From NCBI RefSeq assembly GCF_001684965.1, contig NZ_MAYG01000001.1, positions 3,162,001 to 3,226,000 of the forward strand: DNA of 64,000 bases, given 5' to 3'. Positions 12,006 to 43,954 of this stretch are shown one piece after another (the stretch's first letter is position 1; each line of letters starts with the position of its first letter). The notes beneath the pieces are model-generated. The model was not told the origin of the DNA and searched no databases. It saw nothing but the letters and a program-made list of their open reading frames with translations. Origin of the DNA: Chryseobacterium arthrosphaerae (GTDB lineage: Bacteria; Bacteroidota; Bacteroidia; Flavobacteriales; Weeksellaceae). Both the position numbers and the translations under genes were made by a program.

Positions 12006-12064
12006 GGTAAATGCATTGATGACCTAAAAAAGCCGTTGAGAAAAATTCTAAATGGTTGAATAGA

Positions 12065-13150: not shown

Positions 13151-13151
13151 T

Positions 13152-17056: not shown

Positions 17057-17089
17057 AAAAAATCACACTAACGAGCGTGATTTTTTTTG
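17057..17089 (-). terminator. Hairpin between tRNA-Gly and tRNA-Thr(GGT)
   Basis: AAAAATCACGCTCG.. pairs with ..GTGTGATTTTT around a short loop, flanked by A and T runs. It could be a terminator or a processing site. A shorter relative (ATCACTTTTGACAGTGAT) lies before the other tRNA-Gly copy near 17488-17505. Confidence 0.55.
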
Positions 17090-17162
17090 AGCGGAAGACG
17101 GGGGTCGAACCCGCGACATTCAGCTTGGAAGGCTGACGCTCTACCAACTGAGCTACTTCCGC
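17090..17162 (-). tRNA. tRNA-Gly (TCC), copy 2
   Basis: A 73-nt cloverleaf with acceptor GCGGAAG / CTTCCGC and anticodon loop CTTCCAA with anticodon TCC. It is identical in sequence to the copy at 17512-17584 as far as I can compare. Confidence 0.95.
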
Positions 17163-17247
17163 AATTTTGTTTCCAAAACTATTGGTAACGCTGTGCAAAA
17201 CTAAGAAAATTAATTTAATCCTGCAACTTTTTTTCTAATATAAAATG

Positions 17248-17328
17248 TGGGGAGAGCAGGATTCGAACCTACGAAGCCGAAGCAACTGAGTTACAGTCAG
17301 TCCCATTTAGCCACTCTGGAATCTCCCC
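17248..17328 (-). tRNA. tRNA-Tyr (GTA), copy 2
   Basis: An 81-nt tRNA with a long variable arm. The acceptor stem is GGGGAGA / TCTCCCC and the anticodon loop CTGTAAC carries GTA. It duplicates the copy at 17673-17753. Confidence 0.95.
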
Positions 17329-17349
17329 AGATATTTTATATTAAAATGG

Positions 17350-17423
17350 AGCCTCCAGAGGGATTCGAACCCACGACCCCGAGATTACAAATCACGTGCT
17401 CTGGCCAACTGAGCTATGGAGGC
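17350..17423 (-). tRNA. tRNA-Thr (TGT), copy 2
   Basis: A 74-nt tRNA with acceptor GCCTCCA / TGGAGGC and anticodon loop TTTGTAA with TGT. The anticodon stem seems to contain a T-T mismatch, shared with the other copy. Confidence 0.93.
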
Positions 17424-17511
17424 ATTTTAATAATGGACTGAAACTGATTGAGAAACTCTACTCTACACATTTCAGTGTTAAAAAAAATCACTTTTGACAG
17501 TGATCATTTTG

Positions 17512-17584
17512 AGCGGAAGACGGGGGTCGAACCCGCGACATTCAGCTTGGAAGGCTGACGCTCTACCAACTGAGCTACTTCCGC
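17512..17584 (-). tRNA. tRNA-Gly (TCC), copy 1
   Basis: The same 73-nt tRNA as at 17090-17162. It belongs to the promoter-proximal Thr-Tyr-Gly block of the tandem duplication. Confidence 0.95.
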
Positions 17585-17672
17585 AATTTTGTTTCCAAAA
17601 CTATTGGTAAACGCTGTGCAAAACTAAGAAAACTTATTTAATCCTGCAAGTTTTTTTTCTAAAAATATAAAG

Positions 17673-17753
17673 TGGGGAGAGCAGGATTCGAACCTACGAA
17701 GCCGAAGCAACTGAGTTACAGTCAGTCCCATTTAGCCACTCTGGAATCTCCCC
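17673..17753 (-). tRNA. tRNA-Tyr (GTA), copy 1
   Basis: The same 81-nt tRNA as at 17248-17328, with a long variable arm and anticodon GTA. Confidence 0.95.
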
Positions 17754-17771
17754 AATATTTTATATTTTATG

Positions 17772-17845
17772 AGCCTCCAGAGGGATTCGAACCCACGACC
17801 CCGAGATTACAAATCACGTGCTCTGGCCAACTGAGCTATGGAGGC
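17772..17845 (-). tRNA. tRNA-Thr (TGT), copy 1
   Basis: The same 74-nt tRNA as at 17350-17423. It is the first tRNA after the cluster promoter. Confidence 0.93.
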
Positions 17846-23754: not shown

Positions 23755-24155
23755 GGGGTTGACTGGTTTCGACAGCAAGGTCAATGGGTAAGTAAGCATG
23801 CAGAGAACCGTAGCGCGATCTCTATAATCCCTTGCTACAAAATTTTAACTGGCAACGAAGAGTTCGCTCTTGCAGCTTAATATCGAAGTATAGTAGATCA
23901 AGCGTTTTCCCGAAGATTTTAGTAGGGAAGCAAGATATTCCACAAATGCTCTGTTCTGCGGCGTTTGATCCTGGGATATAGGAATGCGGAAATAAGGCTT
24001 TAGAAGCTTTGGCTAAAGCTCGAAAATTTTAGAAGATAAGCTGGAAGTTGGGTGTCTATCCTCTGCTTCCCGTCGAAAACCAATGGTAGAATAAGCATGT
24101 AGAAAGCTTATGTATTGCTTGTTTGGACGAGGGTTCGAATCCCTCCAACTCCACC
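23755..24155 (+). ncRNA. ssrA: Transfer-messenger RNA (tmRNA)
   Basis: About 400 nt. The 5' GGGGUUG pairs with 3' CAACUCC to form the tRNA-like acceptor stem. GGTTTCGACAGC follows the 5' end and GGTTCGAATCC forms the T arm near the 3' end, all typical. The tag reading frame at 23851-23880 encodes GNEEFALAA followed by TAA, the usual ALAA degradation signal. It rescues stalled ribosomes. The 3' end is the insertion site of the neighbouring island: its last bases form the left copy of a 13-bp direct repeat. Confidence 0.95.
24142..24154 (+). repeat. attL-like direct repeat in tmRNA 3' end
   Basis: CCTCCAACTCCAC forms the last T-arm/acceptor bases of tmRNA and is repeated exactly at 42870-42882. 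Confidence 0.75.
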
Positions 24156-24342: not shown

Positions 24343-26718
24343 CTAAATATTAATTCCAAACCTTTTTAATTTTTTTATTGATTCATAGGCTTTCAATAAT
24401 GACTGCTCTCTAATCCGTTCATTTTTTGACAATGATGATTGTATAGATTTTACATTACCTAATTCAGGTATTGTAAAAATATTAGTATGGTTTGCCAAGT
24501 CAATTATTTTTTTCCAATCATCTTTTGCCAGAAGCTTTAGACGATCAAACATATACTTTATTTCAACCGATTCTTTGTCCTCTAATTTAGATTGAACTTT
24601 CATATCTAAAAGAAAAGAGGGGTTTTCTGCTAAATACCTAATCATTTTTCTGCCGATGGTTATATCTCTAGGTAAGAAGTTTTTATTTTTCTGAATAGCT
24701 TTTAAAACCTCTTCAACCGAATTTTTATTAAAGCCTTCCAAGGAGTTATTTTCGAGAAAACGAACGAACCCATCCCAAAATTTCAACCCAAATTTATGGA
24801 TTTCACTGATAATAAAAAGCCTATCTTCCTCATCATTTGTATCGATATCCTTTTCACTTTCTCGATCTTCTTTTTCTTTTATAGAAATTAAATAATCTTT
24901 AAGGATCGCCTGTAAATCTTCGTCGTAATGTGTTTCTTTCAATCGATTCCAAGAAGATTCTCTTTTAGCATATTCAGAAATCAAACTGTTATGAGCTTCT
25001 TTTACTAAATGATCATATACAAAAACCAAAAGTTTTCTGAGTGTAAGCATTAAAACATCATCTATTTTTTGGTCTTCATAAATTTTCCATAAATCCAGTC
25101 GGTTATCTGTCAAATAATGGAAAAAAGAAACTGTATAAGCTACAGTGAAAGATTTTAAGTTGGTATCACCAATAGCATCAACTCCTTTTCGCCCGAATAA
25201 TTTATCTGTTGATTTAAATAAAATCGCATTAGCTAACATTTTTTTGTAGAAATTTTCCCCCGGCAGTCTATTCTTACTAACTAAAATATTGATTTTTTTG
25301 GTGAAATGAATGAAGTTTTTCTGTGAACCCTGTGAAACAAAATGAGGTTCCAATTCCCAAAGGTTAATGAACTTTGCAACATCAGACTTCACAAACTTCA
25401 GGTGAGAAGGATTCTGCTCCTTGAATTTTTTTTGCTGACTTGGGGTTTGCTTATTCAGCGTTTCACGATACTGTCCGTTTGCGCGTTCAAAAAACCAAAG
25501 TAGTGATTGGTTTTTGTTTTCCGAATTCACTACGTATTTTTTCCTCGAAAGATTTTCTATCTGAACAAAATAAGGATTATTAGATGACAAATCAAGTTCA
25601 GAGACTTTGTTTTGGCTGTTGGCAAATCTTGAAATATTAGGTACTTCACTATTTTTCTGTTCTTTATCTTTTATAACCGTTAGTTTCATTTGGACAAAAA
25701 TCTTGCTCAAATCTGCATCTTTGAATTTCTTCTGAGTATGATAAAGTGAAGCTGTCGTTTGCCCCCCGTTTACGATTTGAAAATCATTGAGTCGAGTGAT
25801 GACCATTTGTCCGTCAACAGATTTTGTTTCTACGCTTTCGGCGGTTGCAGTAATTCCGTTATTGTAAGGTAAAAACATTTGTGGTTTTGTACGAATGGTA
25901 TCCCGAATTCCTTTGTTGAATTTTCCGGCCTGACCAAGAAATGCACGGACATTGCTTTCCAGCAATTCGTTAGAAAATTCTTTGTATAAATTGGCTAAAA
26001 CTTCACCAGGGATAATCGCCAAATAACAATCATACATTTCATCAATGTTTGGAACTTGAAGACATTGCAACCCTTTTCCTTCTTGGGTAAATTTTTCAAA
26101 CTCAATTTCAATTGGCTCGTGAACGCTGTTTGTTTCGTTTATTTTAAATAATCTTGCAACGTCCCAAGTGTGAACGGAAACATCAACATCGTTAATTTCT
26201 AATTTTTCCTTTTCATGATTTGAAAAACCATTGATAAGAAAATACACATTAATTCTGTCAAAATCTTTTCCTTGTTTACCAATAATTTTTATCAGTTCGT
26301 TGAGTTCTGTATGCGAATGGTCGATGTAATCAATATGCCTTTTCAGTGATGAATTGATGAATCTTTTGATTTGATTCAAAGACTTTGTATATTCATCTTT
26401 CGGAATATTGTACTCAAAACTGTCGTTTCTAAAACTCGTAATGAATAAATCTAAAGTTTCAAAATACGTTTTGTTATTTTCATCTCTAAACTGGTCTTTC
26501 AGACAATAGCCGTTGATCTTCCAATCGATTCCGCCTTGATTATTGGGATGAATATAAGACAAAACTCTTGCACCTTCAGACTTTCCGATTGATTCAAAAA
26601 CTTCGATGCAGTATTCTGTAAATTTATCTTCAAAACTTGCACCTTCTCCATCTGAGTAAACCAAAGAAGCCACATCTGATTTTAGTTCTTCTACGTAATT
26701 TTTTAATGCTTTTTCCAT
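24343..26718 (-). CDS. AIPR family protein (abortive-infection-type)
   Basis: 791 residues. The middle contains LPYNNGITATAESVET (about 283-300) and then DFQIVNGGQTTASLYHTQ (about 311-328). These are the conserved core of the AIPR family (Pfam AIPR), named for abortive-infection phage-resistance proteins. The N-terminal 200 residues resemble a nuclease-fold sensor (YFETLDLFITSFRND) and the C-terminal 300 residues are helical. It is the last gene of a four-gene operon, 3 bp after the DUF4420 gene. In published comparative genomics this family travels with MORC-type ATPases, Z1 helicases and DUF4420 nucleases. Its biochemical role has not been settled, to my knowledge. Confidence 0.85.
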   Translation of the reverse strand: MEKALKNYVEELKSDVASLVYSDGEGASFEDKFTEYCIEVFESIGKSEGARVLSYIHPNNQGGIDWKINGYCLKDQFRDENNKTYFETLDLFITSFRNDSFEYNIPKDEYTKSLNQIKRFINSSLKRHIDYIDHSHTELNELIKIIGKQGKDFDRINVYFLINGFSNHEKEKLEINDVDVSVHTWDVARLFKINETNSVHEPIEIEFEKFTQEGKGLQCLQVPNIDEMYDCYLAIIPGEVLANLYKEFSNELLESNVRAFLGQAGKFNKGIRDTIRTKPQMFLPYNNGITATAESVETKSVDGQMVITRLNDFQIVNGGQTTASLYHTQKKFKDADLSKIFVQMKLTVIKDKEQKNSEVPNISRFANSQNKVSELDLSSNNPYFVQIENLSRKKYVVNSENKNQSLLWFFERANGQYRETLNKQTPSQQKKFKEQNPSHLKFVKSDVAKFINLWELEPHFVSQGSQKNFIHFTKKINILVSKNRLPGENFYKKMLANAILFKSTDKLFGRKGVDAIGDTNLKSFTVAYTVSFFHYLTDNRLDLWKIYEDQKIDDVLMLTLRKLLVFVYDHLVKEAHNSLISEYAKRESSWNRLKETHYDEDLQAILKDYLISIKEKEDRESEKDIDTNDEEDRLFIISEIHKFGLKFWDGFVRFLENNSLEGFNKNSVEEVLKAIQKNKNFLPRDITIGRKMIRYLAENPSFLLDMKVQSKLEDKESVEIKYMFDRLKLLAKDDWKKIIDLANHTNIFTIPELGNVKSIQSSLSKNERIREQSLLKAYESIKKLKRFGINI

Positions 26719-26721
26719 TCA

Positions 26722-27690
26722 TTAAATATTTTGGGTAATCTCATCTATTTCGACTGAAAAATTATCTACGGCGGACAGTTCGATAAAATAAGAAGTATTG
26801 TAAATGCCAATAGGAAGATTACTTTTGGTGATTTTCGGAAACTCTTCTGAAACAGAATAGGAATGAGTTCTTTTTAAAGAAAACATTTTATTATAGTGTT
26901 CTTTATCTTCGTCAAAATAACCTAAAAGCATCAGTCTTTCGTTGAAAAACTTAAGTTCATCGATATTTTCAGACAGTTTTTTTTGAGTTTGACTGATTAA
27001 AGAATTGAGTGTAAAACCATTATCTTTCACATCTTCCGAGATATAGAGAATCAAAAATAATTCGGTTAAATTTTGCGAGTCCAATTGTCCTTCATTGGTA
27101 ATTTTTATTTTTGGATATTTTGAAGATGTCAATTTAATTTCAATTCCAATTCCTCCAAAAACAAAATCTTTATCCTCAAAATCTGGTCCTGTCCAAGCAT
27201 TCAGTACAGTTGAGGGAGATTTTTGACAGTCTAACAGATGGTTGATAAAAAGCAATTCGCCAATCAAACCTTTTTGCTGTTCAATACTTAAACCATTGAA
27301 ATTTATTTTATCAAAAAGTTTTTTCCATTTAGAAATAACGTTAAGTGTTTTTGTAATTGCTTCATTTTCTGTAACACATTTAGCAACATCCTCCAGAATA
27401 TTTTGGATGAACAAAGAAAAAATATCTTTTAAGTCATTGTCTAACAAATAAATATTCAACTCACAAAAATCATCAGTTTCAACGCTGAAAATCTCCACGC
27501 CCTTGAAACGGTAATTCTTAAGTTCCGGGATTTTTACATTCCTAGAAACCGACATTATGTACAAGTGCAGTCCAGTGATGTTATTAGTTGCAGCGTAACA
27601 ATTTAGATGTGGAATATCTCCAATTCTTGTTTTTATAATAATGTCACCGGTTGGTTTCTGCGTTTCCCAGATTGATTTAATATTAACCAT
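26722..27690 (-). CDS. DUF4420 PD-(D/E)XK nuclease
   Basis: 322 residues. The nuclease motif reads GLIGELLFINHLL (Glu145), GPDFEDKDFVFGG (Asp175) and GIEIKLTSS (Glu184, Lys186), all elements of a PD-(D/E)XK active site. The WTGP and IEIKLTSS patterns are those of DUF4420. It would be the DNA-cutting subunit of the four-gene module. Spacing is 3 bp from the Z1 gene before it and 3 bp from the AIPR gene after it, so the genes form one tight operon. Confidence 0.85.
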   Translation of the reverse strand: MVNIKSIWETQKPTGDIIIKTRIGDIPHLNCYAATNNITGLHLYIMSVSRNVKIPELKNYRFKGVEIFSVETDDFCELNIYLLDNDLKDIFSLFIQNILEDVAKCVTENEAITKTLNVISKWKKLFDKINFNGLSIEQQKGLIGELLFINHLLDCQKSPSTVLNAWTGPDFEDKDFVFGGIGIEIKLTSSKYPKIKITNEGQLDSQNLTELFLILYISEDVKDNGFTLNSLISQTQKKLSENIDELKFFNERLMLLGYFDEDKEHYNKMFSLKRTHSYSVSEEFPKITKSNLPIGIYNTSYFIELSAVDNFSVEIDEITQNI

Positions 27691-27693
27691 GAC

Positions 27694-30531
27694 TTATTCG
27701 ATATCTTCGTTTGGAAAATCATCTTCTTCTTGTGGGTCTTCATCGAATCCATCAAAAATCGTAGTCGTATATGACGTTTTCACTTCGTTTTCAATTTTTG
27801 GAAAGTGAAGACTATAACCAATTATTGGAATTCCGTTATTTACGTTCGGTGTTCCCCTTTCATCTAAAGCATAAATTAAAAGCAAGCCTTTTTTCTCAGC
27901 AGCTCTTTGCTCTTTTATTTCTTTATTCGTTGTAAACCCATTTACTGTTAAATCAACTTGCCTATCTTTCAAATCATCAATCTGATTTTTTGCAATCAAA
28001 TAAAAGTCGCTTCCTCGAGTGATTTTTGGTTGGTTACGAACACTACAACCTAATGTCAGTGATTCATTATTGAAATGTAAATCATAAGTGAAAACATCTT
28101 CCTTTTCCTGTCTTTCATTTAATGGTGTGTTACCACTGTAATCGATAAACACTTTTTCATCAGTATTAGAAACTATACAGATATTCCATTCTTTAATGGT
28201 ATTATCTTTAGATTGAGCTTTAATATAATCGCTTAAGGTTGCATTTTTAATGCTCGGCTGTTCAATTTTGAAAGCATCAATAAAATCACAAACTGATTCA
28301 ATTTCAATTTTAGGATAATATAAATATCTAATTTTTCCTCGCGTCTCCTTTCTGTTTTGAGCTTCAGGAAATCCAATTACTGAAATTAAATTATTAAGTG
28401 TTTTAAAGTTACTTTCAATTGCAGACTTAGTTTTCAATAATTGGTAGGTCTGCGGATTCGTTCCGGAAAAAGAAATTTCAATTTTTTTCGAGAAATGTAG
28501 TTTTGCCAAACTTGTAATTGTCATTAAACCGTGATGATTTCTAACTTTTAACCTGAAATCTTTCGGACGTTGATGAGAAGCAGTCATTTCATCAAAATCG
28601 TTCCGCATTTCTTCAGTCGCCATTGTGATGTGGTTAAACCATTCAAAAATCTGTTCTGTAGTGTATAATCTGCACAAATCAACATAACCCGGTCGATAGC
28701 CAAACCAGCGTCCCATCTGCATCAGGGAATCATACATTTTTGTTGTTCGCAAATAATAACTAACGGATAGACCTTCCAGTGTAATTCCCCGTGACAGTCT
28801 GCTTCCTCCAACAGCTATTACAGACAAACCGTTTTCGTATCTATTATAATCAATTTCTTCAATATTGTGATATTCTAAATTTGCTGTAGAACGAGTTCCG
28901 TGAACAGAGCGAACATCAATTTTAGAAACTGCTTTTTTTAATTCCCCTTTTACTTCTTCCCAAGAATGCTGCCTAATTCTGATGTCTTTGTAATCCAAAT
29001 TTCCTAACACATTTTCAGTAGTTGGAACAAAATCTGTTTCATATAATCCCTTTAATTCCTGTAAAATCTTGGTATCATCACTTCTAATAGCATTGGCGTA
29101 TTCTTTCGTCTTTTCGTTTACTAAATAAGCTACCCTATCAATCCATTTTACCAGCAACGCAACGTGAACAAGCATTGAATTATGTTTATTTTCCTGTCCT
29201 CGTAATCTTCGTATTGCACATGTAAGAATGAAAGACTTTATTGCTCTTTCTAAACTTTTAGGAAGATATTCCGGTAATTCCTCCTTATTATTTTTATTAA
29301 TAGTCTTGAAAAAAGGAGGATCATAGTCGTCAATTGCTCTGAAAATATCCAATGGTTCATTATCATCTCCACTTGGATTTTCAAAGCCAAATATTTTTGC
29401 AGCACCAATGTAATTATTAGGAGCTTTTATGTTGATAATAAAATCTCTTGGAAATAAATCTTCGCCGATTTTATATTCCTTGTTTTTCACAATTGTCGTT
29501 GCATTTTCATCGTGTTCTTGTGAAATAAACAAGTTTGCATACGGTGTTGCTGTATAACCGATGAAAGTATTCTGATTGAATAAGTTAAGTAAAGTTCTTA
29601 TTAATCTATTGATGGTTTTGATGTCTTCAATACTTTTGCTTGCATTTACAGAAGCCGCATCGGCTTCGTCATCAATTACCAAAACAGGAACATCAAACAG
29701 CTTTGGAGTACCGTCAACAATCTTTGCATTAACGTCTTTTGAAAACCAATCGATAAGGTTTTCGAGAATGCTTTTATTTTTTTTTATAACAAAAACAACC
29801 GGATTTTTTCCTATTGGAATATTTAATCTATTCGCAACCGATTGACTAAAATCACCTTCATCCCCACTTTTGTAATAGGATGAAGTCAAAGAATAAATAT
29901 CAGTATTTACTTTATATTTTCCAACGCCTATTATTTTATTTTCATTTTCTCTGATGAAAGCAGAACTATTTCTACCAATATAGCCAGAATCAATTCTTTC
30001 CTGGGTTTGTCTTCTTAATGAACTAATTGTTCCTGCAATTACAATAATTACTTTGTAGCCTGCGTCGGTAGCTTTATTAATCAAACCTACATAGTTAGAA
30101 GTCTTCCCCGATTGAACGTGACCAACAACCATTCCTCTTCTGTCAAATGATTTTGTTTCTTTTGGATTTACACATTTATCAAGGATTTTATCTGTAAAAT
30201 CGTCCAAATCGTTAACTGGAAAAGCAGGGTCGTTCTTCTGCATATCCAACTTGTATCTATTCCATAATTCAAAGTCGATATTTACCTTTTCATCGTTAAG
30301 CCAAGGCGTAACATTCTCATCATAAAGTTCTGTAATTGTCCCACTTCCTATGCTAAAATCGGCATGGAGTAATTCAAATAATAATTCCTTGTCTACACTT
30401 TGAAACTCTATTGCAGACGAAATTTTATCGTTTATAATTTTTAAAATTGTATTATCATCAATTGTATCACGAGGAACTAAATTTAGATAGGCGTGACAAA
30501 TAAGTTTTGCTGTTTGGTTTACATCGTTCAT
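27694..30531 (-). CDS. Z1-domain superfamily II helicase/ATPase
   Basis: 945 residues. Walker A GHVQSGKT (137-144) is followed by VIIVIAGTISSLRRQTQER (motif Ia region), Walker B VIDDEADAASVN (about 285-296), FIGYTATPYANLF (motif III), the Z1 domain (about 400-650) and motifs V/VI in SRLSRGITLEGL and QMGRWFGYRPGY. Conserved ATPase residues are intact. It probably moves along or remodels DNA for the nuclease partner. Its start overlaps the stop of the ATPase gene by 4 bp (ATGA). The combination of helicase core with inserted Z1 is specific to this class of defence operons. Confidence 0.9.
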   Translation of the reverse strand: MNDVNQTAKLICHAYLNLVPRDTIDDNTILKIINDKISSAIEFQSVDKELLFELLHADFSIGSGTITELYDENVTPWLNDEKVNIDFELWNRYKLDMQKNDPAFPVNDLDDFTDKILDKCVNPKETKSFDRRGMVVGHVQSGKTSNYVGLINKATDAGYKVIIVIAGTISSLRRQTQERIDSGYIGRNSSAFIRENENKIIGVGKYKVNTDIYSLTSSYYKSGDEGDFSQSVANRLNIPIGKNPVVFVIKKNKSILENLIDWFSKDVNAKIVDGTPKLFDVPVLVIDDEADAASVNASKSIEDIKTINRLIRTLLNLFNQNTFIGYTATPYANLFISQEHDENATTIVKNKEYKIGEDLFPRDFIINIKAPNNYIGAAKIFGFENPSGDDNEPLDIFRAIDDYDPPFFKTINKNNKEELPEYLPKSLERAIKSFILTCAIRRLRGQENKHNSMLVHVALLVKWIDRVAYLVNEKTKEYANAIRSDDTKILQELKGLYETDFVPTTENVLGNLDYKDIRIRQHSWEEVKGELKKAVSKIDVRSVHGTRSTANLEYHNIEEIDYNRYENGLSVIAVGGSRLSRGITLEGLSVSYYLRTTKMYDSLMQMGRWFGYRPGYVDLCRLYTTEQIFEWFNHITMATEEMRNDFDEMTASHQRPKDFRLKVRNHHGLMTITSLAKLHFSKKIEISFSGTNPQTYQLLKTKSAIESNFKTLNNLISVIGFPEAQNRKETRGKIRYLYYPKIEIESVCDFIDAFKIEQPSIKNATLSDYIKAQSKDNTIKEWNICIVSNTDEKVFIDYSGNTPLNERQEKEDVFTYDLHFNNESLTLGCSVRNQPKITRGSDFYLIAKNQIDDLKDRQVDLTVNGFTTNKEIKEQRAAEKKGLLLIYALDERGTPNVNNGIPIIGYSLHFPKIENEVKTSYTTTIFDGFDEDPQEEDDFPNEDIE

Positions 30532-31985
30532 TTCAAATAGTCATTAATTAATGGAAATAAATTAAAAGGTGTTGAAGACATAATTTGTTGTTTTGCCAAA
30601 GATTCCGGAATACCTTGCTGAATGTAAATTTTATACAATTCAACAGCTAAATTCAGTAAATCATCACTTGGAGTTTCAGAATGTTTTTCTAATTCATGAA
30701 AGCTTGGGTCTTCGTTTTGGTTGTTTAGAATAAGCTCCACAGGAACATTTTCTTCGAGAAGCTGCAATGCCTTTGATATCAATTTATTTTTGTCAGCTAA
30801 CAAAGAATTAATTATCGGGTGTTTTCTGTTGATCTTATATTTTTTGATTCCTTCACGAGTAATTTCATCTTTCCACAAAGGTTCAAAATTTGAATTCGAA
30901 ATTTGAGAGATAGATTTTTGCCCCCGCCAATTATAGATCTTAGCGGATTTCATAATTGCTATTTTCGCAATCCTCGAAAGCTCCCGACGAATTCCTATTG
31001 GTGGTGCTGCTGTAGATTTTTTAATATCAAGATTCCAATTAAAATCATTTGAATTTGAAAAATTGACTGATATTCTTGCTAATTTGGCGTAGTCCCTTTT
31101 CTTTTCCAATCCCAACCAATCTCCTGAAACAAGCAATCTATCTCCACGGTAAACATAAAAGCCCTGTTGTTGAAGCCAACCAAGAGAACCTCCCGTTTTG
31201 TCGTAATCTTCTTTTCCAATTTCAGACATATGAGGCAAAACAAAATAGGTAACCTCTACATCTCCAAATTTTTCCGGTAATCCCATTTCTGGTTTTGGGT
31301 CAAGGTTTAGTAAAAAAGGATTATATGATTCGATTTCTTCATTTTGAAAAAATATTCTTATTCTTCTACTTTCGATAAATTTATGAAAAACCAAACCGAG
31401 ATGCTCACGTACATTTTCCATTTCCTGGTAAAATGCATTTTTTACACTCTCGTTGTTGCTTTCAGCTTTACCTACTATTCTGTCTAATTTCTCCCATAAA
31501 ACCAGCGTTCCACATTTTTGCTCATTTATTTCATTAAGGAAACTTGAATCAGAAATATAATCTAATAATTGCCACTCTTCTTCATCATTAATAAAATCAA
31601 TATCCCAACATCTTTTTATTGTTGAAAAATTTACCCGTTTAGAAACACAAGTCAATCTTTTACATTGAGAAAACGAAGCAGTTTTCAATCCCATTCCAAA
31701 ACGACCTAAATCTTTTTCAGACCGTTCATCATCGGGATCTTTGCTTCCTGGAGTCATTGCTAAAACCAATTCGTCCTTATTCATTCCATCTCCATTATCT
31801 CTAATGGAAATAAAAGAGTGTTGGCCTTCCCATTTATAATGTATAGAGATTTCATTGGCATTTGCAGAAATACTATTATCTATGATATCCGCAATCGCAG
31901 TCGATAGATTATACCCAAAGCTTCGGTAAGAATTAATCGTTGATTTGGGATTTGGTTTGGCTATTTCGGCTCTAAATTCGTGCAT
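30528..31985 (-). CDS. MORC-type GHKL ATPase
   Basis: 485 residues. The N-terminal GHKL fold shows an N-box AIADIIDNSISA (30-41), G1 IRDNGDGM (61-68) and G2 LGRFGMGLKTASF (93-105). The N-box has Asp33 where many GHKL ATPases have the catalytic Glu. I think this is common in this subfamily but could not check. An S5-like second domain follows (WNLDIKKSTAAPPIGIR). Bacterial relatives are considered ancestors of eukaryotic MORC ATPases. It is first of the four-gene operon, 65 bp downstream of the small nuclease gene. ATP-driven dimerisation on DNA is the inferred role. Confidence 0.88.
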   Translation of the reverse strand: MHEFRAEIAKPNPKSTINSYRSFGYNLSTAIADIIDNSISANANEISIHYKWEGQHSFISIRDNGDGMNKDELVLAMTPGSKDPDDERSEKDLGRFGMGLKTASFSQCKRLTCVSKRVNFSTIKRCWDIDFINDEEEWQLLDYISDSSFLNEINEQKCGTLVLWEKLDRIVGKAESNNESVKNAFYQEMENVREHLGLVFHKFIESRRIRIFFQNEEIESYNPFLLNLDPKPEMGLPEKFGDVEVTYFVLPHMSEIGKEDYDKTGGSLGWLQQQGFYVYRGDRLLVSGDWLGLEKKRDYAKLARISVNFSNSNDFNWNLDIKKSTAAPPIGIRRELSRIAKIAIMKSAKIYNWRGQKSISQISNSNFEPLWKDEITREGIKKYKINRKHPIINSLLADKNKLISKALQLLEENVPVELILNNQNEDPSFHELEKHSETPSDDLLNLAVELYKIYIQQGIPESLAKQQIMSSTPFNLFPLINDYLK

Positions 31986-32050
31986 TTAATTATGAGTATC
32001 AGTCTTATTAGTTTTTTGTTTGTAAATTAATAACCAATTATTAATATACC

Positions 32051-32533
32051 TTATAATGGAAGAGTCAATCTTCCTGATGCATATAATGTTTCAAAAAAAA
32101 TCATTACAGTTTGAAAATCTTGATTTTTTGCATAACTTTTTCTAACTGCTATTACCAAATAATCCACTTCATGCATCATACAAACCTGAAATAGATCCTT
32201 TAAAAATTGATAATTCGTCACCGCTCTGCCTGCTTCAACTTCTACTACCGTCTTAAATTCTTCATTGTAAGCATCAGCATCAAAATATTTTTCAAGTCTA
32301 CCGTTCATACCGAATAAAACTGGAACCTTAATTTTATCATTAGCCCTTTTAGACAATTCAACTTTATAATTCAATTTCAAGAGGCTTGAAGTTATCTTTT
32401 GCAAAACCTCATTACTATGTAAAAAATGTATCTCTGAAGATATTGATTCCTCATTAAAATTGAAAATATCCACAATGTCTTTTAAATGTGACGGTATTCC
32501 TTTTCTCTTGGGATAATATTGCCAATTTATCAT
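32051..32533 (-). CDS. Small restriction-endonuclease-like protein
   Basis: 160 residues. A PD-(D/E)XK-like core is seen at KYFDADAY (Asp85/Asp87) and TVVEVEAGRAVTNYQFLKDL (Glu98, Glu100). The pattern E-x-E replaces E-x-K, as in BglII/BstYI-like enzymes that use another residue in the last position. It overlaps the stop of the methyltransferase gene by 4 bp, the usual layout of a type II restriction pair. I infer that it is the cognate endonuclease. An alternative is a regulatory or inactivated relative. The recognition site is unknown. Confidence 0.65.
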   Translation of the reverse strand: MINWQYYPKRKGIPSHLKDIVDIFNFNEESISSEIHFLHSNEVLQKITSSLLKLNYKVELSKRANDKIKVPVLFGMNGRLEKYFDADAYNEEFKTVVEVEAGRAVTNYQFLKDLFQVCMMHEVDYLVIAVRKSYAKNQDFQTVMIFFETLYASGRLTLPL

Positions 32534-33759
32534 CTTATCATCTCCCTTATCGTGGTGGCAATTCCCTGCGCCATTAGTACCGGTACAGCATTTCCGATTT
32601 GCTTAAATGCTGCTGTTCTACTTGACTCAAAGAAATAGTCATCGGGAAAGGATTGAATTCTTGCAGCCTCTCTTACCGTTATAGAACGGTTCTGATTAAT
32701 ATCCGGGTGTATATAATAATGCCCATCTGCAGATATATGGGCAACAACGGTATGAGAGACTCCTTTATGATTTACAACCTGAAAACGGTTGGTAAATGCT
32801 TTAGTATTATTATGTTTTATCAGTCGTGGAGGAAGCTCAGCATAATTTAGTCGCTTACCTTCATTTACCCATTTATCAACAGCAATTCTATAGATTTCAA
32901 GATCATTTTCATTATTGAGTCTTGAAATATGCTGTGTAGTAAATGAAATACCATTTCTAATACCAGAAGCCTTTAAATAATCATTTGTATCTTGAATATA
33001 TGGAGATACTCCCCATTCGCCCTGTCCGCTTTTAATTTTTGGCAGATCAGAAAACAGATGTTTTGCTATTTCAAATCGTGTTTCAACCTTATAAAACCTT
33101 GGATATTCTATTTCTAAATTATTTTTCCAACCGATAATAATTACCCTTTTTCTGTCTTGCAACACACCAAAATCCTGTGCATTCAATACTTTTTTATCAA
33201 GTTCGTAACCGGCTTCTCTCACTGCATCAAAAATTAACTGAAGGTAGCGACCATTATTAGCAGAGAGTATACCTGGAACATTTTCGAAGACAAACATTTT
33301 CGGTTGATACTTTTTCAAAAATTCAACATAATGTTTGTAAAGGTGATTTCGTGGATCATCTGTCATGTCTTTCCTCACTCTTCCGGCTACAGAATATGCC
33401 TGACATGGAGGCCCACCAATTACTAAGTCAATTGAATCATTACCTAACTCTTCGTCAATTTGATCAAATATTGTCGGTAAGGTTTTTTCTGAAATTTCTG
33501 TATTGATTACCGATTTTATAAGATGATTAGGAATTCTCTCCCAAAGTTCTTTTCTTGTTATAGTTCCTTCTAGATAATCATAATATTCATTTATTCGCCC
33601 CTCTTCTCTCAACCAGTGAAAAGCAGTTCGAGTTCTTAAAGTATCACATGCATCTTTATTCATTTCAACGTGAGCAACAGGAGTAAATCCTGCTCTCACA
33701 AAACCTTCTGAGAGACCACCTGCACCTGCGAATAAATCTATAAATTTTAGTTTTGACAT
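32530..33759 (-). CDS. DNA cytosine-5 methyltransferase
   Basis: 409 residues with all main m5C-methylase motifs: I (FIDLFAGAGGLSEGF, 6-20), IV with catalytic Cys119 (IGGPPCQAYS), VI (FVFENVPGIL), VIII (QDRKRVIIIGW), a variable target-recognition region (about 220-340), IX (HTVVAHISADGHYYIHPD, then RSITVREAARIQSFPDDY) and X (FKQIGNAVPVLMAQ). It protects host DNA from the partner nuclease. A -7-like box TAATTTTG (33819-33826, minus strand) lies about 53 bp upstream within an array of ACGG half-sites. The divergent vsr gene supports frequent m5C deamination at its target. Confidence 0.95.
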   Translation of the reverse strand: MSKLKFIDLFAGAGGLSEGFVRAGFTPVAHVEMNKDACDTLRTRTAFHWLREEGRINEYYDYLEGTITRKELWERIPNHLIKSVINTEISEKTLPTIFDQIDEELGNDSIDLVIGGPPCQAYSVAGRVRKDMTDDPRNHLYKHYVEFLKKYQPKMFVFENVPGILSANNGRYLQLIFDAVREAGYELDKKVLNAQDFGVLQDRKRVIIIGWKNNLEIEYPRFYKVETRFEIAKHLFSDLPKIKSGQGEWGVSPYIQDTNDYLKASGIRNGISFTTQHISRLNNENDLEIYRIAVDKWVNEGKRLNYAELPPRLIKHNNTKAFTNRFQVVNHKGVSHTVVAHISADGHYYIHPDINQNRSITVREAARIQSFPDDYFFESSRTAAFKQIGNAVPVLMAQGIATTIREMIR

Positions 33760-33818
33760 TTTATTTAACTTAAAACAATTACTTTTAATTGTTTAACTAA
33801 TTATTTTTTTACAATCTA

Positions 33819-33933
33819 CAAAATTACGGTGTTTCTGTAAAATAAAATACCGTAAAATTACCTATAATCCCTATCAAACACATTTTTTGTAAATTTACTT
33901 CTGTTCTACCGTTTGTAAATACGGGAACCCGTA
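33819..33933. promoter_or_regulatory. Operator-like half-site array between methylase and vsr genes
   Basis: Half-sites of the type TTACGG/CCGTAA recur: TTACGGT (33824-33830), ACCGTAA (33849-33855), ACCGT (33908-33912) and the perfect palindrome TACGGGAACCCGTA (33920-33933). The first overlaps the methylase -7 box and the last lies 12 bp before the vsr start codon. No controller-protein gene is seen beside them, so the regulator could be the methylase itself or a factor encoded elsewhere. Confidence 0.45.
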
Positions 33934-33944
33934 AATATGCAATT

Positions 33945-34373
33945 ATGAGTGATAAACATACTCCTGAGCAGAGAAGATTTAATATGCAGCAGATAAAAGG
34001 AACAAATACAAAACCTGAAATACTGTTAAGGAGACTTCTTTTTTCTAAAGGTTTCAGATATAGGATAAATAATAAGAATTTACCGGGGAAACCTGATATT
34101 GTATTAAAAAAATACAAAACGGTAATTTTTGTAAATGGCTGTTTTTGGCACGGTCACGAAAATTGTAGATATTATGTTATTCCGAAAACCAGAACCGAAT
34201 TCTGGACTGATAAGATTAACGGTAACAAGAAAAGAGACAAGAAAAATACTGAATTACTAATTCAAATGGGATGGAAAGTTATAACAGTATGGGAATGTGA
34301 ATTAAAAAAAGATAAAGTAGATCAAACAATAGAAAAATTGATAAATGAGCTCCACGATAATCTTTTAGCCTAA
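33945..34373 (+). CDS. vsr: Very short patch repair endonuclease
   Basis: 142 residues, the usual Vsr length. LPGKPDIVL carries Asp51 and VNGCFWHGH carries His69, which line up in number with the catalytic Asp51 and His69 of the E. coli enzyme. The position of the second histidine (64) is Asn here, if my memory of the E. coli numbering is right. ENCRYY (zinc-site region) and VITVWECELKK follow. Vsr nicks next to T in T-G mismatches left by deamination of 5-methylcytosine. It is divergent from the methylase gene and is presumably specific for that target. Confidence 0.92.
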   Translation: MSDKHTPEQRRFNMQQIKGTNTKPEILLRRLLFSKGFRYRINNKNLPGKPDIVLKKYKTVIFVNGCFWHGHENCRYYVIPKTRTEFWTDKINGNKKRDKKNTELLIQMGWKVITVWECELKKDKVDQTIEKLINELHDNLLA

Positions 34374-34423: not shown

Positions 34424-34798
34424 ATGAGTATAAAATTTTATTTAAGAAAAAAAACCGGAGAAACAAAAATCAGTTTCAGATACTGTAGGGGCAGAAAAGA
34501 TGATACTGTCCTTACAACGCCATTCTCAATCCTGGCGGAACATTGGGATTCAGAAAATGAATGTTACCGAGAAAGTCTGCGAAAACGGAACCCCAAAAAT
34601 GAAATTGATAAATTGCTTAACAAAAATATAGATTCCATAAATCTAAAATTAAGTGAATTTAAAGTCTCTTTGAACGGTTTTATTTTAGATAATAATTACC
34701 GAATTGACAGTGATAAGATTAAGGGTTTTATTGCAAAAAATTACGGTAATCCACCTACAAAAGCATTAAAACCTGTACAGTCTCCAATACTACTTTAA
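34424..34798 (+). pseudogene. Truncated tyrosine integrase (arm-binding N-terminus only)
   Basis: 124 residues. MSIKFYLRKKTGETKISFRY, then LAEHWDSENECYRES and INLKLSEFKVSLNGF, match the N-terminal arm-DNA-binding region of Bacteroidota phage-type integrases, which normally continue to about 400 residues. The core-binding and catalytic domains are missing: the frame stops at 34798 where it runs into an unrelated reading frame. It lies in the middle of the island rather than at an end. I conclude that a deletion removed the rest. Confidence 0.65.
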
Positions 34799-36321: not shown

Positions 36322-36378
36322 ATGAAAAAATTAAATTTAAATATCCAACATATCAACAAATTTATTGTTTCGATATGA
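36322..36378 (+). CDS. Possible 18-residue leader peptide
   Basis: ATG at 36322 opens MKKLNLNIQHINKFIVSI and ends in a TGA that overlaps the ATG of the next gene (ATGA at 36375-36378). It could be a coupling leader, or the true N-terminus of that gene with a one-base frameshift. Confidence 0.25.
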   Translation: MKKLNLNIQHINKFIVSI

Positions 36379-37133
36379 TTTCTTACATTTCTCAGAAAAA
36401 CGGGATTAACAATTTCTGCATTTGTGAGGATAGTCTTACAGCAAGCATATTTGATTTAATTAAATATCTGCCCTCAGAGTACATCACAGACATTATAAAA
36501 AACAGTCTTCTTCATGACAAAATCCCCACTGATTGTGGAATACTCCTAAGTCTCTCTTTTTGGGATAAATGGAATCCAAGAAATACCATAAATGAAAAAT
36601 ATGTAGAACCTGACATTTTTTTACGATTTGAAAACATTGATATTATTATTGAGGCAAAGAGATTTGATTATTTCCAACAGTTTGATGATCAGATAAAAAA
36701 AGAAATTACAGCATATTTTAACGAATATGGTTTTGAAAACAAGGATTTATATTTTATTCAATTAGGAGGTATTTATAATCATGATGATGATAATGATTTA
36801 ACAGATGAATTTTATACAAATAAATCTGTTAAAGTTTGTAAAACAACTTGGACTAATTTATTAAATACTATTGTAAATTTTAAAGAATATATATTATCTA
36901 AAAATAACCAAAATGAACAAAATATTATTAGAATTCTTGATGATATTATCAAAGCTTTTGAAATACATCAATTTTATAAAATCAATTGGTTAAATAATTT
37001 AAAGGAAATCTTAATAGACCAAGCCAGCTTTAATCATTTAAGTTATTGCGAACCAAAAATAACAAATTGGTTGTCCGGATTATCAAATTACAAAATTAAC
37101 ACTAATAAAATAATACTTTTTCCTTATGCATAA
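36375..37133 (+). CDS. PD-(D/E)XK nuclease-like protein
   Basis: 252 residues. The catalytic pattern is complete: helix with Glu18 (CEDSLTASIFDLI), EPDIFLRFENIDIIIEAK with Asp80, Glu93 and Lys95, then an amphipathic helix (QFDDQIKKEITAYF). This is the order of a restriction-endonuclease fold. The C-terminal half (about 150-252) is helical and not recognised. It overlaps the next gene by 8 bp, so the two are likely to work as a pair. The setting in a defence island suggests an anti-phage nuclease. That is inference. Confidence 0.65.
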   Translation: MISYISQKNGINNFCICEDSLTASIFDLIKYLPSEYITDIIKNSLLHDKIPTDCGILLSLSFWDKWNPRNTINEKYVEPDIFLRFENIDIIIEAKRFDYFQQFDDQIKKEITAYFNEYGFENKDLYFIQLGGIYNHDDDNDLTDEFYTNKSVKVCKTTWTNLLNTIVNFKEYILSKNNQNEQNIIRILDDIIKAFEIHQFYKINWLNNLKEILIDQASFNHLSYCEPKITNWLSGLSNYKINTNKIILFPYA

Positions 37134-37740
37134 CTTAAATGAGAATTTAACAGAAGTTAGAAAAGCCTACCGATTAATTTATGATTATCAGAAAAGAATT
37201 CTGGATCTCATTAATTTTATCAGAAGTAAATACGACTTTATATATTTAGGTGGTTTTTCAAAGTTTAGCAATGTTTCACCAAGGAATGGTTCAGGCAATT
37301 TGACATTTTGGTCATGGGACTGGTTAAATCTATATTTCTATGAATTTCATTTTCATAAAAAGATCATAAATAAAGATGAAATAAGATTTTCTATTTTTTT
37401 AATTTCTGATTCTGGATATTTCGATAAAAAGAAAGATAATAGCATACAAAAGACTAATCCTGATTTATTTTTGGAACCGGAGGCTTCTAAAAGCAAATTA
37501 ATATTTGTAATAGGAAAAAATACTTGGGAATTATTTAATACAGATAATTGGAATAATACGGATTTTACAACTGGAACTTACGGCCACAAAGAGGATGAAA
37601 AAGGAATAATGCTATTTAAAAGTTATGACTTAGATAAATTTATAGATGAAAATACAGCAAAACAAACACTTATTGATTTTCAATCATACTGCATAAATTA
37701 TGATATTAATCTACCAATAATAGAGCGAAAAATTATATAA
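37126..37740 (+). CDS. Unrecognised partner of the PD-(D/E)XK protein
   Basis: 204 residues, no transmembrane helix or signal. It is rich in aromatic residues (FWSWDWLNLYFYEFHFHKK at about 64-82) and lacks a motif I know. The start overlaps the end of the nuclease-like gene by 8 bp, so the two are co-translated. It could be a specificity, inhibitor or sensor subunit. Confidence 0.6.
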   Translation: MHNLNENLTEVRKAYRLIYDYQKRILDLINFIRSKYDFIYLGGFSKFSNVSPRNGSGNLTFWSWDWLNLYFYEFHFHKKIINKDEIRFSIFLISDSGYFDKKKDNSIQKTNPDLFLEPEASKSKLIFVIGKNTWELFNTDNWNNTDFTTGTYGHKEDEKGIMLFKSYDLDKFIDENTAKQTLIDFQSYCINYDINLPIIERKII

Positions 37741-37814
37741 CAGGAAACATTGTATATCAACCGCCGTGTTTAATTCCATCTAACATATTAATTCATATCT
37801 AAATAGTAATAAGT

Positions 37815-38594
37815 ATGAAAATTTCGTCATTTGCAATAAACAAAATTATACCATATATAGTCGATGCAAAAAAGGGAAAAGAAATCGTAGAATTTTTCAA
37901 CAACTACGGCTTTAGAGATGTTTATGATGAGAAAGGGCTTCCAGAAGTTGGTAAATTAAACGGATCGAGACCATCAAAAACAGAGTATACCAAGAAAAGA
38001 TTAAATGAACTAAATGGCAGTCAAAATCTTAGAAATTTACTAAATAATTTTGTAAAAGATAACACCAACCACTTATCCGATTTTAACGGAATATTAAACC
38101 CAGAAGGCTATGTAATAGAAGACGTAGACGGAAAATTGTTTATTAATGGTGGTATCATTAGTAATGTTGAACCTATTAAAAATGAGGCACATTTTCGAGA
38201 TATTGAATCTCAAATTTTAAAAGCTTTAGATGATGCCGAAGTTTCTATTACAGTAGTTATGGCATGGTTTACAAACAATAGGCTATTTCAAAAATTAATT
38301 GAAAAACAAAAAGAAGGCATTGAGGTAAAACTTGCAATTTATGATGATGGAATTAATCGGAAATTTGGTGTTGACATTTCTAAAATTACACATATTAAAC
38401 TTAAAAGAGGCGCAAGAGGAGGTCTTATGCACAATAAATTTTGCGTAATAGACAATCAAATTGTAATAACGGGATCATATAATTGGTCAGATAATGCAGA
38501 ATTTAAAAATGATGAAAATATCACTGTTGAATATGATCCTAAACAAGCCACAAAATATTCTGTTGAATTTAGAAATCTAACATCAGATAAATGA
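37815..38594 (+). CDS. Phospholipase-D-type nuclease with N-terminal extension
   Basis: 259 residues. The C-terminal domain (about 125-250) holds one complete HKD motif, HNKFCVIDNQIVITGSYNW: His206, Lys208, Asp213 and Gly220 in HxK(x4)D(x6)G. One motif per chain means that it works as a dimer, like the Nuc/BfiI type. Residues 1-120 are an unrecognised extension with GLPEVGKLNGSRPSKTEYTK. The last bases overlap the start of the next gene (ATGA), so they form a pair. DNA cleavage is the likely activity. Confidence 0.8.
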   Translation: MKISSFAINKIIPYIVDAKKGKEIVEFFNNYGFRDVYDEKGLPEVGKLNGSRPSKTEYTKKRLNELNGSQNLRNLLNNFVKDNTNHLSDFNGILNPEGYVIEDVDGKLFINGGIISNVEPIKNEAHFRDIESQILKALDDAEVSITVVMAWFTNNRLFQKLIEKQKEGIEVKLAIYDDGINRKFGVDISKITHIKLKRGARGGLMHNKFCVIDNQIVITGSYNWSDNAEFKNDENITVEYDPKQATKYSVEFRNLTSDK

Positions 38595-39682
38595 CATTAG
38601 ATATATTTGCTAAAAGACATGATTTGGATGAAAATATTTTGCACTCCAAATTTAAATTTCTGCGTGATCAACCAGTCCTTTTTGAAGAACGGAAAATACT
38701 TAGAAATTGGACCAAGGGGTTTATTGACAGAGATAATAAAATAATAAAAGAATTTCAAACAACTTTCCATTCAAGTTTTTGGGAATTCTACTTATATCGT
38801 GTTTTAAAAGATGCCGGCTTTGAGATCGATTTTACACATAACAGTCCTGATTTCATGATCAAATACCCAATAGAATTAAATATAGAGGCTGTTATATCAA
38901 ATATAAAAAAAGGAGGTTTAGAAGAAAAGAATAGAAATTCGAGGAACATTCTAAGTATGGTTACTCCACCATATTTACAAGATAACTATAGAGATTTTTT
39001 AAATGAGGCGATTGCCAGAAACTCTAATGCTATTCATTCTAAAAGTACAAAATATTTAGAAAAGTACAGAACCAAAAGTTGGATTAAAGAAGAAACACCT
39101 TTCTTAATTGCTTTGAGTTCATATGGACAAATTGATTACGGAAGAGAATATTATTATCCACTTTTGGCTTTACTGTATGGCTTATATTTTATTCCTACCA
39201 CAAATGAATTTAAACCCGTTACAGAGATCTCTAAGCCTGACAGCAATTCTTTAATCACCGTCGGTATTTTTAAGGATATTAAGTTTGAACATATTTCAGC
39301 TATCATATTCTCTTGTACAACAACGCTAGGTAAACTGACATCCTTAGCTATATCTGATTCGAAGTTCAAATTTCATCCTAATACTGTTATAAATATTCGA
39401 GAGGATTACGAACCGCCAATTTACAAGATTCAAACTGTGTCTTTTGATAATCCGGAAGAACTTTCAGATGGTCTTTTTATTTTCCATAATCCATTAGCTA
39501 AAAATAAAGTTGCAAAAGAAATTTTCAGTCATACAAATGCGATCCAATTTAACTTTGAGAATGACGAACTAACCGTAGAAGGAGAAAACCTACCAATTGT
39601 CTCTAGACTAAATATTCCAAGTTATATGATAAACAATCTAGTACTTACTGAAATTTCCACGAAATTTAATCTTAATTTCTAA
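38591..39682 (+). CDS. Partner of the PLD nuclease, degenerate PD-(D/E)XK-like
   Basis: 363 residues. At 62-103 it has SFWEFYLYRVLKDAGFEIDF, NSPDFMI and IELNIEAVIS, which follow the helix-PD-strand-ExK order of a restriction-like fold (Glu65, Asp87, Glu99). Val101 stands where Lys is expected, so catalysis may be lost or use another residue. A later domain (about 130-363) is not recognised. It overlaps the PLD gene by 4 bp. I infer a recognition or regulatory subunit for the PLD nuclease. Confidence 0.6.
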   Translation: MTLDIFAKRHDLDENILHSKFKFLRDQPVLFEERKILRNWTKGFIDRDNKIIKEFQTTFHSSFWEFYLYRVLKDAGFEIDFTHNSPDFMIKYPIELNIEAVISNIKKGGLEEKNRNSRNILSMVTPPYLQDNYRDFLNEAIARNSNAIHSKSTKYLEKYRTKSWIKEETPFLIALSSYGQIDYGREYYYPLLALLYGLYFIPTTNEFKPVTEISKPDSNSLITVGIFKDIKFEHISAIIFSCTTTLGKLTSLAISDSKFKFHPNTVINIREDYEPPIYKIQTVSFDNPEELSDGLFIFHNPLAKNKVAKEIFSHTNAIQFNFENDELTVEGENLPIVSRLNIPSYMINNLVLTEISTKFNLNF

Positions 39683-39782
39683 CTATCGTCAATGATTTAG
39701 TACTAAATCTATATATGATTATTTCATTAATTTTAATATCTAATTACTTTTGCCATTATTAAAAACTAATCTGCAGCTAGAA

Positions 39783-40463
39783 ATGAAAGAAAATTTAAAA
39801 CCTTCAAAATTTGATTTATTGACAATTATGAATTTTGTAGCTCCTTCCCTACATGATATCAAGATTGAAGTTGAAGAGCTTAAAAACAGTTATCCTAAAC
39901 TAACTAATATTGAGTTATCCAAAAAATATTCTAAAAAGATCATAAGAAATTATACAAATATTGGAGTAGCTTCTGCTTTACCAAGCGTAATTCCCGGTAT
40001 CGGAACTGTTGGTCAATTTGCTATTGAAGGAACAACTTTAACCGCAGATTTAACTCTCATGCTCAGAATGATGGCTAAAATATGCTATGGAATTGGAGTG
40101 ATAAATAATAGAGACATGGAACAAGGCTTTAATCGTGATTTTATATATATTTTAGGAATTTGGAGTGGTGTGATATTATCTGCAAAAGTAGCTGCTGAAA
40201 AAATTGGCACTAAGGTAGCCGTGGCACAATTTAATAGAAATGTGTCGGGTAAGATACTACAAAAAATAAACAGAAGAGTTGGAACTACTTTAGTAACAAA
40301 ATGGGGTACAAAAAGAGGTGGCATTGCTTTGGGCAAATTGATACCTTTTGGTGTAGGCGTCACTGTTGGAGGATGTTTCAATTATTATACTATGAGCAGG
40401 TTCTCTAAGGCAGCTATAGAACATTACAAATCAGATCATGAAAATGAATACGTAATGATTTGA
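39783..40463 (+). CDS. EcsC-like membrane-associated protein
   Basis: 226 residues from the ATG at 39783. A longer frame from a TTG at 39750 is rejected. The centre has a glycine-rich hydrophobic hairpin IGVASALPSVIPGIGTVGQF, then ADLTLMLRMMAKICYGIG. This recalls the EcsC family and other small membrane-inserting domains found as defence effectors. A second hydrophobic segment (KLIPFGVGVTVGGCFNYY) is near the C-terminus. It stands alone with about 67 and 63 bp of flanking gap before the next clear signals. A membrane-damaging effector role is a guess. Confidence 0.5.
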   Translation: MKENLKPSKFDLLTIMNFVAPSLHDIKIEVEELKNSYPKLTNIELSKKYSKKIIRNYTNIGVASALPSVIPGIGTVGQFAIEGTTLTADLTLMLRMMAKICYGIGVINNRDMEQGFNRDFIYILGIWSGVILSAKVAAEKIGTKVAVAQFNRNVSGKILQKINRRVGTTLVTKWGTKRGGIALGKLIPFGVGVTVGGCFNYYTMSRFSKAAIEHYKSDHENEYVMI

Positions 40464-40526
40464 CTTGGAAAAGTTATTATAAAATATTAAACATATAATT
40501 ATTAAAAACATTAAATAAACTTAAAT

Positions 40527-41699
40527 ATGAAACTCAGCCATTTAACACGCATTAAGGATCATAGATCAAATTGCTATTCGACAATACTCGAAGTTTCAGT
40601 TGGAGACTATTTAAAATTGGTAACCGAAATTTATAAAAACAAAGGGGGAATTAATGAACAAAGAGAGCCTCTGAAGACTAGCTCAGCAATGAGAATCAGA
40701 AAACAGATGGTAAAGGATATAAAGTCAGGTACGATTTTACCTCCAATTGTTATCGGCGTAATAGTTAGTAATAATGATTTCGATAATATACCAAGAATAT
40801 CCGACAATGATCTTTCTGACATTATAAAAAATGTAGGAGATGGAAATCTAACAATTATTGATGGCATGCAAAGGACTACCGCAATTATTGAAGCTGTTGA
40901 AGAAGGATTATCAGTTGATAATATTATTAGAGTAGAATTTTGGATATCAACCAAACTTAATAGTCTCATTTATCGTATGCTGGTATTAAATACTGGACAA
41001 GTCCCATGGAATATAAGACGACAAGTCGAAACCGTTTTTAGTACAATGATCAATGAGATCAAAAATGCTATCCCCGAAATAGAAGTATATAGTATAAACG
41101 ATGGAAGCCGTAGAAGCAGAGGTGGACAATATCACGCTGATGCGTTAATCGAATTATACCTAGCCTTTGGAGGGAGAAAAGAAAGGGTTGATACAAGAGA
41201 ACGTTTAGCAGATGAGTTTACCAGACTTGATTTTATAGAAGTTACAGAAAGTAATAGTTTTTCAGATTACTATTATCAATCTTTACGGGCATTAACTTTG
41301 CTTGATATTGATTTTAGTAGATTTGAGTCAGTTGATAATGATAAAAAATTTAATAGTGGCAAAGATTTATTTAAGAGTCAACCCGCTCGGGTCGGCTTTA
41401 TTACAGCAATGGCAAAACAAATTTTTGGCAGACCAGGAATTGAAAAATCAGAAGATGAAATACAAAAATCTTTTGAGTCAGTTGCACAAAAATTTAATGC
41501 CATTTATAAAAAAGTAAATTCTTTTTCACAAACCGAACTTGAAGAATTTTTATCCTTAGCAACTCTTAGTGAAAAACTAAATGTGAAATCTTCCCGAGTT
41601 GGAGATTTTGAGAGGGAATTCTTCACAAAGTCATTTGAAACATTATTTGAATTAGGTGAGAATATTCCATCATTAGAAGTTTGCTGGTTATCATATTAG
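40527..41699 (+). CDS. DGQHR/ParB-like protein
   Basis: 390 residues. The signature TIIDGMQRTTAIIEA (109-123, core D112-G-M-Q-R116) resembles the DGQHR motif of DndB-like proteins and the DGQQR of DUF262/GmrSD proteins, both with a ParB-like fold that can bind DNA or nucleotides. It is preceded by RIRKQMVKDIKSGTILPPI and followed by VLNTGQVPWNIRRQVE, also typical of these families. The C-terminal half is helical. It is followed after 4 bp by a HEPN-like gene, so this is very likely a two-gene unit. Confidence 0.6.
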   Translation: MKLSHLTRIKDHRSNCYSTILEVSVGDYLKLVTEIYKNKGGINEQREPLKTSSAMRIRKQMVKDIKSGTILPPIVIGVIVSNNDFDNIPRISDNDLSDIIKNVGDGNLTIIDGMQRTTAIIEAVEEGLSVDNIIRVEFWISTKLNSLIYRMLVLNTGQVPWNIRRQVETVFSTMINEIKNAIPEIEVYSINDGSRRSRGGQYHADALIELYLAFGGRKERVDTRERLADEFTRLDFIEVTESNSFSDYYYQSLRALTLLDIDFSRFESVDNDKKFNSGKDLFKSQPARVGFITAMAKQIFGRPGIEKSEDEIQKSFESVAQKFNAIYKKVNSFSQTELEEFLSLATLSEKLNVKSSRVGDFEREFFTKSFETLFELGENIPSLEVCWLSY

Positions 41700-41703
41700 G
41701 CTT

Positions 41704-42753
41704 ATGAGAAACATGATTAATGTAAATATTAATGCTTTTTCTAATTTAATTGATGACTACCTTAAATATAATGACGGTTCTGTAAAAAGCGGGAAAAGAT
41801 ACATAAAAAGTAGAGATTTTGAAAAAGATTGGATTAAAGAAGCACAGATTAGGGACATCTTAATTATCACTTCCGATATAAGACTTATTGAAATAGAATT
41901 TTGCAGCGAATTTTATATAGCAATAGTTGGTGCAAATATAACCGACAATCAAATACCTGAAATTTTAGAAACATTTGATATTAACAGTGGTATAACTACA
42001 TTATTAGTTTCCGAGAAATACTTAAAACTTTCCAAGAGAGCTAATCAATTAGAATTCTATGACAATATTCTATTTCAACATCTAGATCCAAGCTACAATG
42101 GACATGATTTTGAAGATATTTTACAGTTTTTAGAACCTGTGCAAATATTTAAATTGAGTAAATTTTCTATTTTGAAGACAAATTCTGTTGATCGAATAGC
42201 TTGCTATATATTCTCAAAATCTACTAATGAGTTAATCTTAGAATTTAACCAAGATGTCCTTGACCTGATATCAGAATTATCTTTAATGGGCTCCGACAGT
42301 ATAAATTACCGTCTAATAATCAATTGCATCTTCTCCACTACATACAAACATTCATTTTTAGAATTATATCGACTAATTGAGAGAATTTTTCCTGTTAGCT
42401 ACTTAAAAGAGCTTCATCTAAAATCTAGAACAACTCTTGACTTTTTAGATTTTGTGTCAGAATTTGAAACTTCCTTAAAATGGAAACCTAAGGAGGATAT
42501 GGCGATAGATAGAATTTTTGAAGAATCAAAAGTAACAACGTTACAGTATTTTCAAAATTTCAAAACCAGCCTACCTGATGACCAGAATCACAATCATGCA
42601 ACTTTTTTTTATAAACTAAGAAACTCTATTGTTCATTTCAGAGCTAATCATGAAGAAATTTTTCTAACATCAGAACAGTGGAACCTTTTGTTGTTAGCAA
42701 CATTATATCTTATTGATGAGCATTATAGCTTATATAACAATATTCTGCAATGA
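41704..42753 (+). CDS. Protein with C-terminal HEPN-like RX4H motif
   Basis: 349 residues, no family recognised over most of its length. Near the end FYKLRNSIVHFRANHEE carries Arg306-Asn-x3-His311, the R-x4-H motif of HEPN ribonucleases, flanked by helices as expected (SEQWNLLLLATLYLIDEHY). The N-terminal part contains a possible PLD/restriction-like sensor (DILIITSDIRLIEIEF). It sits 4 bp after the DGQHR-like gene. HEPN toxins often cut RNA to stop infected cells. Such an effector role is inferred from motif and position. Confidence 0.55.
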   Translation: MRNMINVNINAFSNLIDDYLKYNDGSVKSGKRYIKSRDFEKDWIKEAQIRDILIITSDIRLIEIEFCSEFYIAIVGANITDNQIPEILETFDINSGITTLLVSEKYLKLSKRANQLEFYDNILFQHLDPSYNGHDFEDILQFLEPVQIFKLSKFSILKTNSVDRIACYIFSKSTNELILEFNQDVLDLISELSLMGSDSINYRLIINCIFSTTYKHSFLELYRLIERIFPVSYLKELHLKSRTTLDFLDFVSEFETSLKWKPKEDMAIDRIFEESKVTTLQYFQNFKTSLPDDQNHNHATFFYKLRNSIVHFRANHEEIFLTSEQWNLLLLATLYLIDEHYSLYNNILQ

Positions 42754-43745: not shown

Positions 43746-43954
43746 AACAGTACAGATATTAAGGTCATACATCTTCATTTTCGTTATAGCCATAAGTATA
43801 CCAATGAGTACTGCTATTATATATCAGACATTATCGTTCAGTTTCCATGAATAAATCATGTGCCGGGAACATTGATAAGACCGGAAAAATTAAAAAAAAA
43901 CAAATCTGGGCATCTTTGCATCAGATCCAATAATCTGATAAACCTATTGGCTTA

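Follow-up and report, generated by a model that had tools for sequence, protein, structure and literature searches.

The 64,000-nucleotide stretch of Chryseobacterium arthrosphaerae DNA analyzed here (the window; contig NZ_MAYG01000001.1, positions 3,162,001 to 3,226,000) contains a well-preserved operon of a kind already known and predicted to act in anti-phage restriction. We found that one domain of its DNA motor protein has been exchanged among close relatives, with little change in the remainder of the operon. An m5C methylase gene leads the operon and is followed by homologues of mzaB, mzaC, mzaD, and mzaE in that order, all in one direction on the minus strand; the mzaC homologue, which encodes the motor, occupies 27694..30531, between the mzaD and mzaB homologues. 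The genes called in an earlier sequence-only reading are real and correctly placed.

The exchanged segment lies toward the C terminus of the motor (27922..28389, minus strand) and is marked out by identity among close pairs, DNA identity, tree topology, and fold. It falls below 60% identity in 168 of 493 close motor pairs, against none of the 493 in any of the 11 windows tested across residues 53-728; in a dereplicated set the figures are 111 of 284 pairs for the segment and 0/284 for the comparison windows. DNA identity to the locus L092 drops at 28400-27901, and trees built from 25 rows are in conflict. Modeling predicts for this segment the fold of the C-terminal part of the CglI H-subunit. 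The first 60 residues of the motor (30352..30531, minus strand) are also variable (<60% identity in 177 of 493 close pairs), and their classes track the C-terminal ones only in part (distance correlation, 0.2), with 19 of the 23 rows of C-terminal class 2 having one N-terminal class in common. The helicase motif DSLMQMGRWFG, with Ser in place of Thr, begins at residue 601, and D601, Q605, R608, and G611 are present in all 30 rows. No swapped segment was found among 113 relatives of the AIPR protein.

The data establish that the segment is exchanged and where it lies; as for mechanism, they suggest an ATP-dependent, methylation-policed restriction system whose motor would carry a diversifying sensor or specificity domain. 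Specificity domains are also typically exchanged as cassettes, and the segment could alternatively be a classical target-recognition domain that reads the unmethylated site and that the methylase must match, as in type I or CglI-like restriction; a Pfam search revealed no R.CglI-like B3-type domain in any operon protein, which is in line with this alternative. Against it, the methylase recognition region is 79-82% identical among the window, L090, L092, L120, and L121, regardless of whether their motor segments belong to the same class (84-87%) or to another (42-44%), and that region is 95% identical between L124 and L059, whose segments are 56% identical. We therefore regard a classical target-recognition role as unlikely. 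Several points nevertheless weigh against the sensor or specificity reading. Once the motor core is allowed for, segment and methylase recognition region retain a partial correlation of 0.30 across 13 operons, so that a link of the segment to methylation specificity is conceivable; this value was matched by 22 of 2,000 permutations, a weak null since permutation also breaks the tie between segment and core. Control windows overlapping the segment dip as well (3, 125, 165, and 17 of 493 pairs), as expected from the overlap. The 120 motor relatives were ranked by similarity to the window, which favors its own allele. Finally, the MORC protein has Asp rather than Glu as its acidic N-box residue, and contacts between motor and nuclease are assumed.

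The domain exchange makes this part of the motor a likely place of conflict with phages. Because it provides natural pairs of nearly matching alleles, that role is directly testable, and the predicted fold would connect the motor to the biochemically studied CglI enzyme. MORC ATPases are common to bacteria and eukaryotic chromatin silencing, which gives the operon a wider relevance.

The sequence-only reading had placed four genes beside a separate methylase/nuclease unit. Its interpretation is supported in part: a restriction-type role remains the probable one, but the methylase heads the same run in most relatives examined, which argues for a single operon. The methylase (409 amino acids; 32530..33759, minus strand; PF00145, 234 bits; best PADLOC model DrmMII, 568 bits) has counterparts at 20 of the 24 class loci; at 14 of the 24, the methylase frame either overlaps a same-strand GHKL frame or is separated from it by no more than 10 bp. 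These counts also bear on whether the window holds a standard MZA system with the methylase and Vsr as unrelated neighbors on the same island. The MZA system, mzaABCDE, was reportedly described by Gao et al. in 2020. PADLOC and NCBIfam do name MzaB to MzaE here in the MZA order, L091 pairs this methylase and Vsr with a greatly different set of effectors, and the methylase sits at the opposite end of the run in L064 and L024 and on the opposite strand in L054. However, unlike in MZA, a methylase heads the operon, and all four proteins score far below the NCBIfam equivalog cutoffs (382 versus 850, 622 versus 1500, 117 versus 420, and 355 versus 1050 bits for MzaB to MzaE). A whole-genome search with the PADLOC and NCBIfam models of MzaA, a sigma factor according to Miller et al., found no match in the window and none at the operon. 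The best matches, at 1.40 Mb of C1 and 1.8 Mb from the operon, reached 161 bits (PADLOC) and 267 bits (NCBIfam; cutoff, 800), the latter covering only the last third of the model; the MzaA models also match in 11 (PADLOC) and 10 (NCBIfam) of 14 control genomes. We regard a standard MZA system with unrelated neighbors as quite improbable.

The other operon proteins fit known families, as a Pfam search proposed earlier bore out. The MzaB homologue (485 amino acids; 30528..31985, minus strand; HATPase_c_3, 116 bits; PADLOC MzaB, 320 bits) combines a GHKL ATPase domain with the S5 motif GFYVYRGDRLL at residue 275, the features by which Iyer et al. 2008 (PMC2292703) define prokaryotic MORC proteins (S5 motif, GhXhhpXXRhl). 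They also describe the family to which the gene set belongs, including a third operon type that agrees with the one here, in which genes for a MORC protein and an RE-fold protein accompany an SF2 helicase with the C-terminal motif DThhQXuRhFG; here, DUF4420 is adjacent. The DUF4420 protein (MzaD homologue, 322 amino acids; 26722..27690, minus strand; PF14390, 201 bits) is a predicted PD-(D/E)XK nuclease; all 29 rows have E145, D175, E184, and K186. The last gene encodes the AIPR protein (MzaE homologue, 791 amino acids; 24343..26718, minus strand; PF10592, 307 bits; PF22879, 72.5 bits; PADLOC MzaE, 267 bits). The same set of genes is described in Miller et al. 2022 as a putative "type II" system. 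The literature portions searched yielded no worked-out mechanism for MZA-like systems. In the excerpts available, CglI and NgoAVII (PMC4267653, PMC5737866) differ from this operon, CglI having a PLD/B3 endonuclease and just three genes, none of them for MORC, DUF4420, or AIPR; the island of Corynebacterium diphtheriae BH8, as far as PMC5379612 was available, differs in its EcoRII-like endonuclease, with no MORC or AIPR named there.

Directly behind the methylase, in the window and in L009-L013, lies a gene for a small protein (32051..32533, minus strand), the window copy of which stops eight codons early and lacks the last strand. The model of its relative P0002 matches BglII (13.6), BstYI (11.9), OkrAI (11.8), and BamHI (11.1), the next row outside these scoring 6.9, and predicts a BglII/BamHI restriction endonuclease fold over 143 of 168 residues; E59, D87, and E98-x-E100 are invariant in 30 rows. 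Fold, conserved residues, and position would all suit a dedicated restriction enzyme of the system, with the methylase as its partner and the other four genes in support, although we consider this very improbable. The text of section 11 of the account of the closest system, in the part available, names neither such a protein nor a motor-domain exchange.

Between the small gene and the GHKL gene, L009 carries (10518-13733) a HATPase_c_3 and histidine-kinase protein plus a response regulator, resembling the HEF_HK/Response_reg_2 pairs of PMC8011034. In L023 and L026, the small protein occurs in runs of small, mostly same-strand open reading frames (ORFs) resembling integron cassette arrays. The methylase-GHKL stretch of L092 lacks the small gene and seems to contain an unrelated short ORF.

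The Vsr mismatch endonuclease gene diverges from the operon (33945..34373, plus strand), which at its other end adjoins the tmRNA gene ssrA (ARAGORN; 23755..24155, plus strand), the edge of a hotspot. All 40 genus genomes searched contain ssrA, the match being partial in G516 and confined to the 3' end in G503, and some genomes have extra copies of its 3' end. Of 15 ssrA-containing stretches from relatives, 10 (L090, L095-L101, L105, and L107) carry the counterpart of the window's 59351 gene at a distance of 0.7-18.7 kb from ssrA; in the other five (L091, L102, L103, L104, and L106), this counterpart is not reached. It comes within 0.7-1.1 kb of ssrA in L095, L098, and L100, versus approximately 35 kb in the window (24156-59350); the 24.2-59.3 kb region of the window therefore represents a filled hotspot. 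The operon also adjoins ssrA in L090, L120, and, inverted, L121, and lies next to the 59351 gene in L092; the stretches examined of L092, L123, and L124 contain no ssrA. An N-terminal tyrosine integrase fragment (34424..34798, plus strand; Arm-DNA-bind_5, 28 bits) has relatives near ssrA in L104, inside an open frame of 462 codons, and in L091, where the frame spans 205 codons or more. Further PADLOC defense candidates follow at 36375-42753 on the plus strand (PDC-M15A/B, a PLD protein, PD-T7-5, an EcsC-like protein [PDC-S29], and DzbA/DzbB). Two adjacent LuxR-type genes at 42951-44749, the first with a Pfam GerE match, contain repeated stretches 79-85% alike in DNA, and a Gly-Tyr-Thr tRNA block is duplicated at 17089-17845.
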